From: Methanococcoides sp.
GTDB lineage: Archaea > Halobacteriota > Methanosarcinia > Methanosarcinales > Methanosarcinaceae
Direction: 5' to 3'
Length of the DNA stretch: 64,000 bases
Assembly (NCBI GenBank): GCA_021108185.1
Contig: JAIORJ010000182.1
Span: 62,001 to 126,000 of the forward strand
Shown: piece after piece, positions 43,541 through 50,000 of the stretch
Position numbering within the stretch: the stretch's first letter is position 1
How the letters are laid out: each line of letters opens with the position of its first letter
The notes under the pieces: generated by a model
Seen by the model: the letters and a program-made list of their open reading frames with translations, nothing else
Database searches by the model: none
Told to the model about the DNA's origin: nothing
Made by a program: the position numbers and the translations under genes

Positions 43541-44884
43541 TCATTCTTCAATATACAGTTCTTCACCATTTCTAAGCATGTGGACCGTATCACCAAGGAT
43601 ATAGCCTGCATCTTCCGCCATTTCAATATAAGCACTGTGCATACCGATGTGTCCGTGTGCAGGGATCACATGTTCAGGATTGATCATCCTCAGAAGTTCC
43701 CAGTGGTCTTCACGGTAAGCGTGACCTGAAACGTGCACATCATCATAGATACGGGCACCCTTCATCTTAAGCTTGGTCTCGAGTGCATAGCGGTTTGCTT
43801 GCGTCATAGGGCTTGGTATAATATTTGCAGAGAATATTATACGGTCACCGGATTCAACTTCAAATGGTGTGTCACCACTTGCAACACGTGAAAGGATAGC
43901 ACCTGGTTCTCCCTGATGGCCTGTAACGATAGGCAAGTATTTTTCTTTGCCTTCTGACATGATCTTCTTGAAAGCCCGGTCGATGTCCTTACGTTTACCA
44001 TATATCTCAACATTTTTCGGGAAATCGATATATCCCATGTTCTTTGCAGTTACCACATATTTGTCCATGGAACGTCCCATGAGTACAGGGATACGGCCCA
44101 TCTCTCCTGCAACCTGAATGATAGAGTTGATACGTGCAATGTGAGATGCAAATGTAGTGACGACCATACCGACATCGGATTCCTCGGTACCCAGGAGTAC
44201 ATCGCGCACCATATCATGAGCGATCTTTTCTGATGGGGTCTTACCTTTGCGGTCTGCATTGGTACTCTCCACGATCATGCATATGACACCTTCCTTTCCA
44301 AGCTCCCTGAGCCTTTCAAAGTCAGGTGCCTCACCAAGTGTTGGTGTGCGGTCAAGCTTGAAATCGCATGCGTAAAGAACAGCACCTACAGGTGTATGTA
44401 CTGCAACGAACACCGCATCGATGATACTGTGCTGTACACGGATAAGTTCAATGGAAACATCATCATTTATCTGATAGGTGCCACCAGCCTCTATCGGAAT
44501 GATCTTGTTCTTGACACCGAACTTACGTTCGGATTCTATCTGCTGTTTTATAAGGGCTGCTGTATAAGGCGTACCGATGATAGGAGCAGTGTATCTGTGA
44601 GCAAGTTTTGGTATTGCACCGATGTGGTCAAGGTGACCATGTGTACAAACAATAGCAGCAACGTTGCCGTTTACCTGCTTCATGATCGTGTCGTCAGGTA
44701 TTGCACCCATTTCTATAAGCTCAAGGGAATGCATCTTATCAATTTCTACATCCTCATGGATCTGGACCCTATCTAATCTCAGGCCCATATCAACGATAAT
44801 GATGTCTTCGTCAACTCTTATAGCAGTCATATTACGACCCATTTCGTTATAGCCGCCTACTGCTATGATTCCAATATCTGTCAT
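43541..44884 (-). CDS. rnj: ribonuclease J (beta-CASP metallo-beta-lactamase)
   Basis: Archaeal RNase J, a 5'-3' exoribonuclease and possible endonuclease. The 447-aa protein has the metallo-beta-lactamase motifs VCTHGHLDHIGAIPK (motif 2, HxHxDH), a VADFKLD-like ACDFKLD motif, and the beta-CASP region with EGEKYLPIVTGHQGEPGAILSR and SGHAYREDHWELLRMINPEHVIPAHGH. GGAGG lies 7 nt before the ATG. It sits between fni and idsA, an arrangement that is common in euryarchaea. Confidence 0.93.
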   Translation of the reverse strand: MTDIGIIAVGGYNEMGRNMTAIRVDEDIIIVDMGLRLDRVQIHEDVEIDKMHSLELIEMGAIPDDTIMKQVNGNVAAIVCTHGHLDHIGAIPKLAHRYTAPIIGTPYTAALIKQQIESERKFGVKNKIIPIEAGGTYQINDDVSIELIRVQHSIIDAVFVAVHTPVGAVLYACDFKLDRTPTLGEAPDFERLRELGKEGVICMIVESTNADRKGKTPSEKIAHDMVRDVLLGTEESDVGMVVTTFASHIARINSIIQVAGEMGRIPVLMGRSMDKYVVTAKNMGYIDFPKNVEIYGKRKDIDRAFKKIMSEGKEKYLPIVTGHQGEPGAILSRVASGDTPFEVESGDRIIFSANIIPSPMTQANRYALETKLKMKGARIYDDVHVSGHAYREDHWELLRMINPEHVIPAHGHIGMHSAYIEMAEDAGYILGDTVHMLRNGEELYIEE

Positions 44885-44980
44885 ATAATTCCTCCAATTT
44901 ATCTGTATTTTCTAATTCAATGATAACTTTTGGTCATCTTGACCAAAAAATGACTGTGAATTTCGGCTTTAGTAAACCTA

Positions 44981-46078
44981 TCAAAGGTCAGACCTTATGT
45001 CAAGGTCCTTTGGATCAAAACCACGCTGTGTGATGTATTCTTTTGTCCATCCGGTTACAGTGACATTTGAACTTGTACGAAGCTCATTGATATTACCACA
45101 TCCGCAAAGGAACATTGCGACCCTCAGTTCATTGAGCATCTTTGACAGGCTTGAGACAACCTCATCCGCTCCAATGAGCGCTGGCCCCACAAAAGGAAGG
45201 GCTGCACTTGCAGCATACGCACCAAGAGAAAGGGATTTTGCAATATCGAGACCTGTTCGCACACCACCCGTTGCCACCACGGGAACAAAGCTTCGGCATT
45301 CGAGAACACTGGAAACAGTAGGTATACCGAAGTCCCAGTAGAGATTGCCCAGATCCTCGGAAATTACATCGCCGCTATCATGTGCCCTATATACTTCCAC
45401 ACCTGACCAGCTTGTACCTCCGACACCACCCACATCAATTGCACTTACACCTGCTTCTTTCAACAATGCTGCATCTTCTTTTGAGATACCAGCACCAGTC
45501 TCCTTCGCGATAATCGGGACATTGAGAGAACAGACCTCTTCGATCATTTCGAGTACACCTGTAGCGTCTCGATCACCTTCAGGCTGTATCGCCTCCTGAA
45601 GGAAATTCAAATGTACTGCCAGAGCATCCGCATCCAGCATATCAATGAGCTTCTCCATTGCTTCGATACCATATTCCTTAATCTGGGCTGCACCTACATT
45701 TCCATAAACGAATGCATTTGGTGCTTTATCACGGACCACACTGAAAGAACTTTCCTGTTCAGGGTCCTCGATCGCAGCCCTTTGACTTCCCACACCGATC
45801 CCGACACCCAATTCCTCAGCAGCTTCCGCAAGAGCGGCATTTACCGGAGTTGTGTCTGGATGCCCACCTGTAATAGATGCTATAAGGAATGGAGCCTTCA
45901 ATGATTTGCCTAAAAATTCGGTGGACAGATCGATCTCATCCATATGTATCTGTGGCAATGCCTTGTGAATAAGCATAACATCATCGAATCCGGATGTTAC
46001 GTTCTTGGCTTCCACTGGACGTTTTGCACAATGTTCAAGGTGCTCGATCTTTCTCTTGGATGTACTCAAATCTATCAA
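44981..46078 (-). CDS. fni: type 2 isopentenyl-diphosphate delta-isomerase
   Basis: FMN- and NADPH-dependent isomerase that converts IPP into DMAPP. The 365-aa TIM-barrel protein shows SKRKIEHLEHCAKRPVEAKN, FLIASITGGHPDTTPVNAALAEAAE, GVGSQRAAIEDPEQ, HLNFLQEAIQPEGDRD, KETGAGISKEDA and DVGGVGGTSWSGVE. It starts with TTG at 46078; no ATG is placed suitably. It lies 16 nt after the isopentenyl phosphate kinase gene. Confidence 0.93.
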   Translation of the reverse strand: MIDLSTSKRKIEHLEHCAKRPVEAKNVTSGFDDVMLIHKALPQIHMDEIDLSTEFLGKSLKAPFLIASITGGHPDTTPVNAALAEAAEELGVGIGVGSQRAAIEDPEQESSFSVVRDKAPNAFVYGNVGAAQIKEYGIEAMEKLIDMLDADALAVHLNFLQEAIQPEGDRDATGVLEMIEEVCSLNVPIIAKETGAGISKEDAALLKEAGVSAIDVGGVGGTSWSGVEVYRAHDSGDVISEDLGNLYWDFGIPTVSSVLECRSFVPVVATGGVRTGLDIAKSLSLGAYAASAALPFVGPALIGADEVVSSLSKMLNELRVAMFLCGCGNINELRTSSNVTVTGWTKEYITQRGFDPKDLDIRSDL

Positions 46079-46094
46079 ACCTGTTAATGTATTA

Positions 46095-46848
46095 TTATGA
46101 ATCTTTTATTGCAGTACCGATGTTCTCACCATTTAGAAAACTCGACACGCTTCCCACTACGGTTGCATTGAATATATAGGAGGTTATACTTGATGTTTTG
46201 CCAAGTTCCAGCATTTCAAGCACTTTTCCAAGCATTCCACCGGTCACATCAGTTCCAGCCGAACCACCGATATACGCCTTTACCTCATCGAAATTCTCTG
46301 CAGTGATCACAGGGATCGTCTCACCTTTATCATCGAACACACCATCTGCGGCACTCCCAACTCCAATTCTGGAAGCCTGTAACTGGGTTGCAAGATAGGG
46401 TATCACCTGATCACCGGAGATGATGGATACGCCTTTTACCTCATCCATTACAACATCACCGTGCAATACCGGAACAAGCCCTTTCTCAAGCATCAACCTG
46501 ATACTTCCGAGATACATGTCCGAGATGCGACCGTTCTTTGCGACCGTACAACACATTGGATGTACTGATATCGCATTCACACCTTCATCATTGAGAATTC
46601 CAACTACGATACGGTTCAATGCTTTTACTGCATTGTGAGTGACAACAGCCCCTTCCGCATGGAAGCCTTCCGTAAGGGCATATCGTTTTGCTTGGGGGTG
46701 ACCGTAAGAACCTGCACCATGCACAATGATAAGTTTACCTTCAAAACCAGATATTTCACGTGCTATCCGGATTATCTCTTCTTCCCAGCTTATCGGTAAT
46801 GACGCTGCCGCCTATCTTCAATATCGTAATCCCGTTATTTGAGTTCAC
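46095..46848 (-). pseudogene. ipk: isopentenyl phosphate kinase with apparent 2-nt frameshift
   Basis: Kinase of the archaeal alternative mevalonate pathway, making IPP from isopentenyl phosphate. A GTG at 46848 overlaps the mevalonate kinase stop (GTGA) and begins NSNNGITILKIGGSVITDK, the nucleotide-binding start of the family. At plus 46788-46792 the frame breaks. WEEEIIRIAREISGFEGKLIIVHGAGSYG continues one frame over and runs to the stop as an intact C-terminal 209-aa part (from 46724) with GSAGTDVTGGM. The sequence reads AAG-CTGG where AAG-AGC-TGG is expected, i.e. two bases short. The enzyme should be essential, so a sequencing error is as likely as true loss. Confidence 0.8.
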
Positions 46849-47756
46849 TGGCATTCCACCTTGACACCTACATCTGTCGCATTGGTCACAACAACTTCCC
46901 CGCCAGCCATACTGATCGCCTCTGCCACCGAATCTACATTCTCACGCGGAGATATAGCGACCATACAACCACCGCCACCTGCACCGGTTATCTTTGAACC
47001 ATACGCACCATTTTCACGTGCAGCGTAGATAAGGGAACACAGTTCAGCACAACTTACACCAATAGCATCAAGCAGACCCTGATCGATATTCATAAGTTCG
47101 CCAACAGAAACATAGTCCCCATCGTTCACAAGATCTTCACCAATAACAGACAGCTTTCCAATGGATGATAATACAGGTCCCACAACATCAGGGAACCTAT
47201 TATTAAGATCAGCCACATTACCCACGAGTTCTTTTGTGGATGAGAATATATTTGTGTTACCTATAAGGATCCCACAATCAATAAGCTCAAGTTTTTTACG
47301 CTGTGGTATCAGAACCACGCCACCCATGGTACATACATACGTATCTGTGGAACTTGCTGCACCCTGTATCTTCTGCTCGACCTCATGCCCCATCTTTGCG
47401 ATATCATCCAGTTCAAGTCCGAGGTCCAGCAAAGTATCCATTGCCTTGATCGTAGCCACAGTAACTGCTGCAGAAGAACCTAGCCCGGAGCCTACCGGAA
47501 TATCAGAACTTATGCGCAGGTCCACCCCATCAAATGATGAGATCTCCTGAAAGCGTTCGAGGACAGCTGAAACATAAGGATGGACTTCAAAATCGAGACC
47601 CGTGGTCCCAAGGGATGAACTTATGGTGATCGTGTCCGCAGGAGATACGGTAACTCTGGTACGAATATCCACTGCACAACAAATGGCAGGCTCTCCATAG
47701 ACCACTGCGTGTTCACCGAACAGATATACTTTACCAGGTGCAGAACAGGTGATCAT
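46845..47756 (-). CDS. mvk: mevalonate kinase
   Basis: GHMP kinase that phosphorylates mevalonate. The 303-aa protein has SAPGKVYLFGEHAVVYGEPAICCAV (start motif), the ATP loop SSDIPVGSGLGSSAAVTVAT and the C-terminal GSKITGAGGGGCMVAI. GGAGA lies 8 nt before ATG 47756. Its stop overlaps the GTG of the next kinase gene. It lies 21 nt after the MEMO gene. Confidence 0.94.
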   Translation of the reverse strand: MITCSAPGKVYLFGEHAVVYGEPAICCAVDIRTRVTVSPADTITISSSLGTTGLDFEVHPYVSAVLERFQEISSFDGVDLRISSDIPVGSGLGSSAAVTVATIKAMDTLLDLGLELDDIAKMGHEVEQKIQGAASSTDTYVCTMGGVVLIPQRKKLELIDCGILIGNTNIFSSTKELVGNVADLNNRFPDVVGPVLSSIGKLSVIGEDLVNDGDYVSVGELMNIDQGLLDAIGVSCAELCSLIYAARENGAYGSKITGAGGGGCMVAISPRENVDSVAEAISMAGGEVVVTNATDVGVKVECQ

Positions 47757-47777
47757 GATAATGTCTCCTTTAGATGA

Positions 47778-48572
47778 TCATTTTACAATGATGGCAGCAT
47801 ACCCTACAACCATCGGATCCCCAGTAACATCCCCACTGGTACCATATTTGACCAGCTCGGTGTTCTTAGCACCACATTCCTTTGCAGCTGTCAACATTGC
47901 TGTTATTGGACCGTATCCGCAAGCTGTGATGTCTTTCTCGTACTTTCTCCGATAAATTTCAGGTACGTCCATATCAAGAATGGCATCAATAAGATAATTG
48001 TCAGACTTTTCAGCTTTTTCCTGAAGTACATAATGTGAAAGATCACTTGATGCAATGAATACGACCTTTTTACCCGATTCCTTTACAGCACGAGATACTT
48101 CCAGACCTACCTCGACAGCAGTATCTTCATCCTGCATCCCCATGCAAATTGGCAGGACCTTAAAATCGCTTCCGAATCGGTATTGTAGGAAAGGTATCTG
48201 CACTTCCACAGAATGCTCATATCGGTGGGCAACTTCATCCATATCGATAATGGACCCTGCAAGCAGTTTGCCCAGTTCCCTATCAGTCTCGACATCTCCG
48301 AAAGGTGTATTCCAGACATCCTGGGACATTGCGACCGGAGAACCATATCCTGTATGGTTTGGTCCAAATATCACGTATGTGTCTGCTTTCGGAAGCCTTG
48401 CAAAAGCATGTGCTGCAACCGGACCGGAATAGACATAACCTGCATGTGGAACCACTGCACCTATCACGTCTTCAGACTTTATCTCAAGACCATGAAAGCA
48501 TTTCACGATTTCTTTACGCAGTGCCTTTGTGCTCAGCGGATAGAACTGCCCTGCAACTGTTGGTTGTCTCAT
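47778..48572 (-). CDS. MEMO1 family protein (AmmeMemoRadiSam protein B)
   Basis: A 264-aa member of the MEMO family, related to class III extradiol dioxygenases, with metal-site residues in VVPHAGYVYSGPVAAHAF, IFGPNHTGYGSPVAMS, AHRYEHSVEVQIPFLQ and SSDLSHYV. Archaeal role is not established. It pairs by family with AmrS at 41298. It lies between rpsB and mvk, an order known from many euryarchaea. GGGGGAA precedes the ATG. Confidence 0.92.
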   Translation of the reverse strand: MRQPTVAGQFYPLSTKALRKEIVKCFHGLEIKSEDVIGAVVPHAGYVYSGPVAAHAFARLPKADTYVIFGPNHTGYGSPVAMSQDVWNTPFGDVETDRELGKLLAGSIIDMDEVAHRYEHSVEVQIPFLQYRFGSDFKVLPICMGMQDEDTAVEVGLEVSRAVKESGKKVVFIASSDLSHYVLQEKAEKSDNYLIDAILDMDVPEIYRRKYEKDITACGYGPITAMLTAAKECGAKNTELVKYGTSGDVTGDPMVVGYAAIIVK

Positions 48573-48644
48573 ACTACTGTTCCCCCTGTTACAAACGGGA
48601 TATATTATGTATGAGTGAGGTTAGGAAAAATGAGAACAGGTCAA

Positions 48645-49298
48645 TTAAAGACCTGTTTCAAATTCACTTGCTTCATAGTTGAAAGGAATATCCCTTTCGT
48701 TTGCGATCTCTCTTGCCAGAAGCCAATATACGAGGGAAAGTGCTTTTCTACCCTTGTTGTTGGTTGGAATAACAAGATCTACATTGGAGGTCATGTTGTT
48801 AGTGTCACAAAGTGCAACAACAGGAATACCTACATTTACAGCTTCCCTGATGACCTGTGCATCTCCTGCAGGATCGGTCACAATTACTACATCTGGCTCA
48901 AAGAAACCTTCCTGGACAGGGTTTGTAAGACTGCCTGGAATGAACCTACCGACCTTTGAAACTGCTCCAACTGACTTTGAGAACATAGTTGCTGGATACT
49001 GACCATACTGACGTGCGGATACGACAAGTATTCTGGATGGGTCATACTTTGAAAGGAAATGTGCAATAGATCTGATCCTGTCATCAGTTGACTGTATGTC
49101 GAGTACGTAAAGTCCATCTGTCCTTACACGGTAAACGAACTTCATCATGTTCTGTGTCTTCTGCTGGGTACCAATGTGTACACCTGCTGCCAGATACTCA
49201 TCTATAGGGACAAGTGATGTGGACTCTGTGGACTCTGTGTTCTCTGCTGCTGCGCTTGTTTCAGCTGTAATCTCAATATTTTGATCCGTATTTTCCAT
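48645..49298 (-). CDS. rpsB: 30S ribosomal protein S2 (uS2)
   Basis: 217-aa uS2 of the small subunit, archaeal type, with an acidic Thr/Glu-rich N-terminal extension of about 25 residues before [20 protein letters not shown]. Conserved parts include [47 protein letters not shown] and a [18 protein letters not shown] end. GAGGTGAATTT precedes the ATG. It follows rpoK by 13 nt; the enolase gene that often lies between them in euryarchaea is absent. Confidence 0.95.
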
Positions 49299-49311: not shown

Positions 49312-49491
49312 TTATCGTAAATTTCTCTTGACTGTAATAGGTATAACGCCTTTCTCAAATTCAAGTGTAGCTAGATATAATGCGTCAGTGCTATCGTCTT
49401 CGACCAATATGGGTGCTTCCATTGCAATCTGAAGTGATCTTGCCCCTATGATCCTTGCACGTTCATACCTAGTGTATTTCTCATTGCTCAA
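49312..49491 (-). CDS. rpoK: DNA-directed RNA polymerase subunit K (Rpo6)
   Basis: 59-aa omega/Rpb6-like subunit that stabilises the polymerase assembly. It reads [20 protein letters not shown] near the start and [12 protein letters not shown] in the middle, and ends [12 protein letters not shown], the complete family pattern. It begins with TTG at 49491; GGTGAT lies 4-5 nt upstream and no in-frame ATG is available. A TATA-like run near 49549-49565 on the minus strand suggests that rpoK-rpsB has its own promoter. Confidence 0.93.
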
Positions 49492-49631
49492 TTAATCACC
49501 CTTATTAAAAAATCATTAATGAAATATTTTGAACAAACATAGTCAGACGATATTATATATTAACAAATAATCAAATCCAGAAACAGTATTCATTTGGTTT
49601 CGTTCTGACTTATTAAATATATGAAAGTGTT

Positions 49632-49794
49632 ATTCGGAATCCCTCCGAATGTGGTTATCGATCTTAGTGAAGGCTGATATTATCAGTTAGCCCAAAATGG
49701 GCCAATGGAACCGCTGAGATCGGTCCTCAGGTGCCGGTTTATTTCGCACAGATTCCAATAAAGGGCTGTGGCCCGAACACCAAAAGGTGCTCGG
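49632..49794. ncRNA. candidate structured RNA: seven consecutive hairpins between rpoK and rpoN
   Basis: Hairpins in order on the plus strand: ATTCGGA/TCCGAAT (49632-49650), CTGAT/ATCAG (49674-49686), TTAGCCCA/TGGGCCAA (49687-49705), AACCG-CTGAG/CTCAG-CGGTT (49709-49739), TTTATT/AATAAA (49738-49762), GGGC/GCCC (49763-49774), and CCGAACACC/GGTGCTCGG (49773-49794, nine pairs, AAAA loop). They stand almost end to end, unlike a simple terminator. The strand is not settled: it could be the 3' region of the rpoN transcript (minus) or a plus-strand RNA driven by TTAAATAT near 49612. Not a tRNA, SRP RNA or RNase P RNA. Confidence 0.4.
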
Positions 49795-49811
49795 AGTACC
49801 TTGCAACCCAT

Positions 49812-50000
49812 TTACTGATATGGAGCCATTGTGTCCACAAGCTCGACATGAGCAAGGAACATTCTCCTGCAACAGTACCTAACGAACTTCAGGTCATCGA
49901 GTACTGTAGCAGGGTCTTCTCCTTCACCTGTACGACGTTTGTACTCTTCCCAGCCTTCCGCAATAACCTTTCCACATGTGAAACAGCGAACTGGAATCAT
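49812..50000 (-). CDS. rpoN: DNA-directed RNA polymerase subunit N (Rpo10)
   Basis: 62-aa zinc-binding Rpb10 homologue. It begins [23 protein letters not shown], with the C-x2-C half of the zinc site, and has the CC pair in [25 protein letters not shown] precedes ATG 50000. It lies 14 nt after rpsI. The 320-bp stretch beyond it to rpoK contains only the hairpin series and the rpoK promoter. Confidence 0.95.

Follow-up and report, generated by a model that had tools for sequence, protein, structure and literature searches.

The spacer between rpoN and rpoK in the window (the whole stretch of Methanococcoides DNA analysed here, 64,000 nucleotides long) had been described in an earlier note as an array of seven consecutive hairpins. 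We find that this array is composite, consisting, on the minus strand, of a decaying tRNA-Pro(CGG) gene and a separate conserved hairpin of 24 nt (49632-49655). The hairpin is a lineage-specific RNA motif. The tRNA part is an ordinary one, and its decay left, as relics or by accident, most of the hairpins in the array. Taken as a whole, the reading in which a pseudo-tRNA stands beside a constrained cis-acting hairpin seems to us probable. The motif is apparently new to description: no account of it was found in the open-licence literature, although an earlier one may exist elsewhere, and the main text of a 2010 survey of structured RNAs mentions neither Methanosarcina nor ribosomal protein S2.

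The open reading frames of the window give the minus-strand gene order rpl13, rps9, rpoN, spacer, rpoK, rps2, and the spacer is therefore placed, as had been claimed, inside a ribosomal/RNA polymerase operon. The upstream gene rpoN (RNA polymerase subunit N, 49812-50000) has homologues in 105 of 112 genomes of the family; downstream, rpoK (RNA polymerase subunit K, 49312-49491) is followed after 13 bases by rps2 (ribosomal protein uS2, 48645-49298), both being ORFs with homologues. A DNA search recovered the equivalent spacer in congeners and in other genera, every time between rpoN and rpoK, and the alignment of these spacers resolves two distinct conserved blocks, the tRNA block and the hairpin block. 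Between them in the window lies a trailer (49656-49705) with lineage-specific small hairpins (GCCCAUUUUGGGC; GGCU..AGCC type), whose sequence is not kept from genus to genus. Further downstream, a TATA-type block conserved within Methanococcoides and read from the alignment (TTATTTGTTAATATATAATATC, 49549-49570) could be a putative promoter of rpoK's own; lying downstream of the hairpin, it would argue for hairpin action on read-through RNA.

On the minus strand the hairpin reads ACCAC-AUUCGGA-GGGAU-UCCGAAU, with its arms at 49644-49650 and 49632-49638 and the ACCAY flank at 49651-49655, and the window copy is a perfect 7-bp dyad with a 5-bp spacer. Its consensus is RACCAY, a stem of 7 bp with an optional further closing G-Y pair (7-8 bp), and a loop GGA. 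Within the class, a covariance model matched 103 of 238 genomes, almost always in single copy (best E 2.5e-10). Together with the pattern search it assigns the hairpin to Methanosarcinaceae other than Methanosarcina (Methanococcoides, Methanolobus, Methanohalophilus, Methanomethylovorans, Methanosalsum, and others), to ANME-2 cluster archaea, and to Methanoperedenaceae. In every match examined, across these three families, it lies in the rpoN-rpoK spacer, on the sense strand of these two genes and at a variable distance from rpoK (about 100-196 nt in Methanosarcinaceae). When the exact pattern was scanned against 84,980 species, 66 of the 71 matches fell at the rpoN-rpoK locus and five elsewhere, the latter being about the chance expectation. 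Methanosarcina-like genera (g7, g11) lack the hairpin, as do g2, g5, g9, and g10, and no diverged form rose above chance in them with filters off; the hairpin is therefore dispensable in some lineages. Outside the order, no matches at E 0.001 were obtained in 393 sampled genomes of the phylum. One Methanoperedens MAG (G175; L247/L365) has two copies at a distance of 227 bases, separated by a run of N; this is either a genuine tandem arrangement or a duplication introduced by assembly.

Covariation was assessed for eight pairs in 48 distinct sequences, against 500 shuffles and slid controls. Pairing was maintained in 98.4% of cells, compared with 87.4% in shuffles and at most 60% in the slid controls. 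Four of the eight pairs showed two-sided changes (U-A to C-G, A-U to U-A or G-C, and G-C to A-U), and double-change cells numbered 53 against 18.9 in shuffles, a value reached by none of the 500, although these cells are not independent events. To judge from this alignment, the hairpin is under strong constraint in both sequence and structure. The earlier note had proposed covariation among relatives as a check of its array, and had taken the array as a single 3' regulatory or processing element or as an independent RNA. The hairpin at 49632-49655 passed this check strongly, and its stem (49632-49650) is the only one of the array conserved as such; the remaining block is tRNA-derived, so that one covarying hairpin stands beside a tRNA-Pro(CGG) pseudogene rather than a novel array of RNAs.

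A conserved flank and loop, a covarying stem, and one site per genome in front of rpoK-rps2 together form the pattern of a protein-binding cis element. We hypothesize that the hairpin acts in cis within the polycistronic transcript as a predicted site for an RNA-binding protein, that its ligand would most likely be an operon product acting back on its own genes (uS2 or a subunit of RNA polymerase), or else a processing or stability factor, and that it would thereby set the output of rpoK-rps2 apart from that of the rpl13-rps9-rpoN portion. Feedback control of rpoK-rps2 by a protein-bound cis hairpin is what we infer, tentatively and with somewhat less than even confidence, to be its most likely function. 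More doubtful is the specific version in which the hairpin couples uS2 and RNA polymerase subunit K, an operon protein binding RACCAY-hairpin-GGA and shutting or releasing rpoK-rps2; we think it rather unlikely to hold in this form. If true, Methanosarcinales, the methane-oxidising ANME-2 among them, would control the supply of RNA polymerase subunits at the RNA level in a way of their own. Several points stand against cis control: the hairpin is missing in the Methanosarcina-like and four other genera, its distance to rpoK varies, and the fraction of rpoK mRNA started at the candidate promoter, which lies between the two, would lack the hairpin. Also, the 16S and 23S rRNA of a congener (G005) contain no close sequence match to the hairpin, and hence give no pointer to a ribosomal protein ligand.

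Known leader elements of ribosomal protein genes include the bacterial rpsB leader and, in archaea, the element for L1 autoregulation. Like these, the present hairpin is small, conserved, carried in the transcript 5' of a ribosomal protein gene, and confined to one taxonomic group. Unlike them, it is intercistronic, a good distance upstream of rpoK and rps2, it has no close rRNA look-alike (G005), and its ligand is only proposed. A second comparison comes from Methanococcus maripaludis, where internal termination between rps9 and rpoN uncouples the same operon and a mutant grows worse (PMC10450193); this suggests that it matters to methanogens to set RNA polymerase subunits separately. By analogy, the hairpin may be another device by which this operon keeps the expression of its ribosomal protein and RNA polymerase genes apart, although it is situated between rpoN and rpoK rather than between rps9 and rpoN and has no U-tract. 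An intrinsic terminator was considered and rejected: no GC-rich stem with a U-tract was found, and the hairpin is followed by A-rich sequence. How archaea control ribosomal protein and RNA polymerase genes at the RNA level is poorly known, and a 24-nt covarying element shared by three families that comprise methanogens and methane oxidisers, and easily mutated in cultured relatives, is directly testable.

Ranked close behind feedback control is a role in processing or stability without feedback, either as end protection after tRNA excision or as a nuclease site; this we consider possible, if on the unlikely side. The hairpin lies just downstream of a tRNA that needs to be excised from the transcript in most species, and the operon of M. 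maripaludis, with its uncoupling between rps9 and rpoN, offers a precedent (PMC10450193). However, no U-tract terminator was found, and tRNA and hairpin do not go together: the latter is kept at two loci from which the tRNA is gone (L131 and L148) and is absent from the Methanosarcina-like genera, which bear the tRNA, so that tRNA maturation does not simply account for it.

A perfect 7-bp dyad with a 5-bp spacer, at about one copy per genome and, in Methanococcoides, with A/T-rich promoter-like DNA downstream, might be read as a DNA operator, placed upstream of the rpoK promoter and bound by a transcription factor. The one-sided changes make this improbable, since nearly all of them are G-U on the minus strand, corresponding to A-C on the plus strand, and a DNA dyad predicts no such bias. 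At pair 10-24, for example, the one-sided states were U-G in eight cases and C-A in none, the U-G state having arisen some five times separately as judged by eye, and G15 stood opposite only U or C. These minus-strand wobbles favour an RNA on the sense strand of the operon over either a DNA dyad or a plus-strand RNA. Moreover, the ACCAY flank and the GGA loop are conserved on one side only, and a single site per genome with no further target would be odd for a transcription factor.

The whole spacer folds above chance on both strands, and better on the minus strand. The minus strand, the sense strand of rpl13-rps9-rpoN and rpoK-rps2, folds at -68.6 kcal/mol (z -4.4) and the plus strand at -62.7 kcal/mol (z -3.5), with none of 200 dinucleotide shuffles as good in either case. 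The stems listed in the earlier note are present and above chance, but they do not amount to seven independent hairpins, because several of them compete in the minimum-energy fold of the minus strand. The one singled out as strongest, with nine pairs around AAAA (49773-49794), does have its nine pairs as minus-strand RNA (CCGAGCACC-UUUU-GGUGUUCGG, one of them G-U), whereas on the plus strand its fifth pair is A-C. According to the alignment, it is built from the decayed D-arm and anticodon arm and is missing in intact relatives. Similarly, the absence of a known RNA family holds only for the window sequence itself, for which Rfam at gathering and relaxed thresholds returned nothing real and a single chance match (E 0.32); over most of the block the homologues are a tRNA gene.

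This tRNA block occupies 49706-49810 on the minus strand, its first base one after the rpoN stop codon, and aligns with intact relatives as GGGACCGUAGGGUAGCCUGGACCAUCCUUCGGCGUUCGGG / intron / ACGCCGGUACCUGAGUUCAAAUCUCAGCGGUCCCA. Homology and synteny with intact tRNA-Pro(CGG) genes are thus clear. The cloverleaf is lost: only four of seven acceptor pairs form, the anticodon stem is broken, and the T-arm remnant (49714-49730) retains its stem CUGAG/CUCAG around a loop that now reads GACCGAU instead of UUCAAAU (norm UUCRANY). The former intron of 31 nt (49741-49771) takes its length and position from ARAGORN calls on relatives, i(41,31). By inspection of the alignment its core is still legible, with the UUCG/CGAA helix, 3-nt bulges GGC and AUA, and an inner helix CACAG/CUGUG; the outer helix contains one G-A pair, and at the energy minimum the nine-pair hairpin forms in place of this bulge-helix-bulge. 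ARAGORN called no tRNA at this locus in L001-L004. The window, L002, and L003 share a broken acceptor stem and the T-loop GACCRAU, whereas L004 (genome G005) forms seven of seven acceptor pairs by wobble and has the T-loop UUCACAU, with damage in the D-arm, anticodon arm, and T-loop; it is a half-way stage of decay. The window carries about 29 substitutions over tRNA and trailer, whereas the exons of six congeners are 100% consensus-identical. The assembled part of the window genome (97% complete) yielded no second CGG copy; tRNA-Pro(UGG) and tRNA-Pro(GGG) are kept. On sequence grounds, then, 49706-49810 is a tRNA-Pro(CGG) pseudogene in the Methanococcoides clade of the window.

ARAGORN finds the intact tRNA-Pro(CGG) at the syntenic position in three families of Methanosarcinales, at most of the Methanosarcinaceae loci examined and at all of the ANME-2 and Methanoperedenaceae loci examined. 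It contains either no intron or one of 17-33 nt, with an intron in most Methanosarcinaceae, and as read from sequence the intron is a textbook bulge-helix-bulge with a UUCG/CGAA helix and bulges GGA and CCA. The gene corresponds to the known archaeal form of this tRNA (Rfam RF00005), the window copy sharing its operon place, exon plan, and canonical 37/38 intron position but differing in the broken acceptor stem, T-loop, and anticodon stem. The tRNA was likewise not called, and on inspection was lost or damaged, in the Methanolobus-type genus g4 (L016, L098, L103, L109, L152, and L148), in the Methanomethylovorans-type g3 (L017 and L100), and in Methanosalsum (L131). None of these g4, g3, and Methanosalsum genomes had a recognisable intact CGG copy at another place. 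Two other genomes (G018 and G019) have tRNA-Pro(CGG) at a different genomic place. In the g4 spacer of L016 (G013), the anticodon loop of the tRNA remnant is UUUGGGA, i.e., UGG and not CGG, and the acceptor end is mismatched.

A tRNA-Pro(UGG) would read CCG through U34 wobble, and its retention would make the loss of the CGG tRNA tolerated. No codon shift followed the loss, CCG accounting for 0.17-0.21 of proline codons without the tRNA and 0.18-0.22 with it. Clade-specific losses of tRNA-CNN are known in Archaea, tRNA-CGG being missing in Methanococcales and Methanobacteriales (PMC6000648). The present losses resemble these in that the C34 tRNA is gone and the U34 isoacceptor remains, and differ in being recent, repeated within Methanosarcinaceae, and caught half-way with remnants; the value of the tRNA part lies in this repeated loss of a C34 tRNA with intermediate stages still legible.

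Between the window and G005, the tRNA block differs at 25 of 108 positions, and four-fold-degenerate sites differ on average by 19.7% over 28 genes, so the divergence of the pseudo-tRNA fits neutral decay. An accelerated or selected decay was apparent against local genes and was rejected, as the 28-gene four-fold divergence is about equal; the adjacent genes look closer because the two genomes show unusual similarity over the stretch of about 43.5-49.3 kb. A template-switch origin of the new hairpins was also rejected: candidate templates exist, but the gain was reached by 0.245 and 0.52 of the randomised-mutation nulls. We consider it very unlikely that the pseudo-tRNA part has been exapted as an independent structured RNA of the Methanococcoides clade, with a functional nine-pair hairpin and bulge-helix-bulge core. 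The minus-strand z of -4.4, the retained UUCG/CGAA splice helix with both 3-nt bulges, and two changes in the nine-pair stem of a sister species (L003; A to G and C to U) that still pair by wobble would fit such a role. However, the nine-pair hairpin occurs in only three close sequences, which gives two compatible changes little weight. The divergence of the region is near the neutral rate, and no such structure was kept in L017, L131, and L148, where the tRNA has been lost or partly deleted.

That the conserved element encodes a short leader peptide, M..NH[IS][RQ]RDS[EG], is largely refuted and highly improbable. An in-frame start precedes it at some Methanosarcinaceae and ANME-2 loci, and an ATG before AACCAC is nearly constant in Methanoperedenaceae, but start codons occur at 47 of 89 loci in that frame and at 44 of 89 in the next, none is found in the window or in most Methanosarcinaceae, and a one-base insertion in Methanomethylovorans shifts the frame. 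The Methanoperedenaceae (L207-L212 and L237-L254) have an extra conserved GAACAUG before AACCAY, with the in-frame ATG in nearly all members of one genus. Finally, chance structure without function suits the tRNA-derived part, whose stems are decay products, but as an account of the whole block it has next to no probability, being refuted at 49632-49655 by a covarying, single-copy, syntenic hairpin in three families.

Three minor observations concern the surroundings. In rpoN-rpoK spacers across the family, Methanosarcina-like genera included, a short hairpin followed by (G/A)CUGGU recurs right after the tRNA in many genera and may be a trailer processing signal. Over 43543-49298 of the window, four-fold divergence from G005 is 5-16%, compared with mostly 18-40% in the genes that flank it to either side, a pattern resembling recent homologous exchange among Methanococcoides lineages. 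Genome G000 carries a tRNA-Pyl (CUA) gene (contig C4:63336-63404, L163), as expected for a methylamine-using methanogen.
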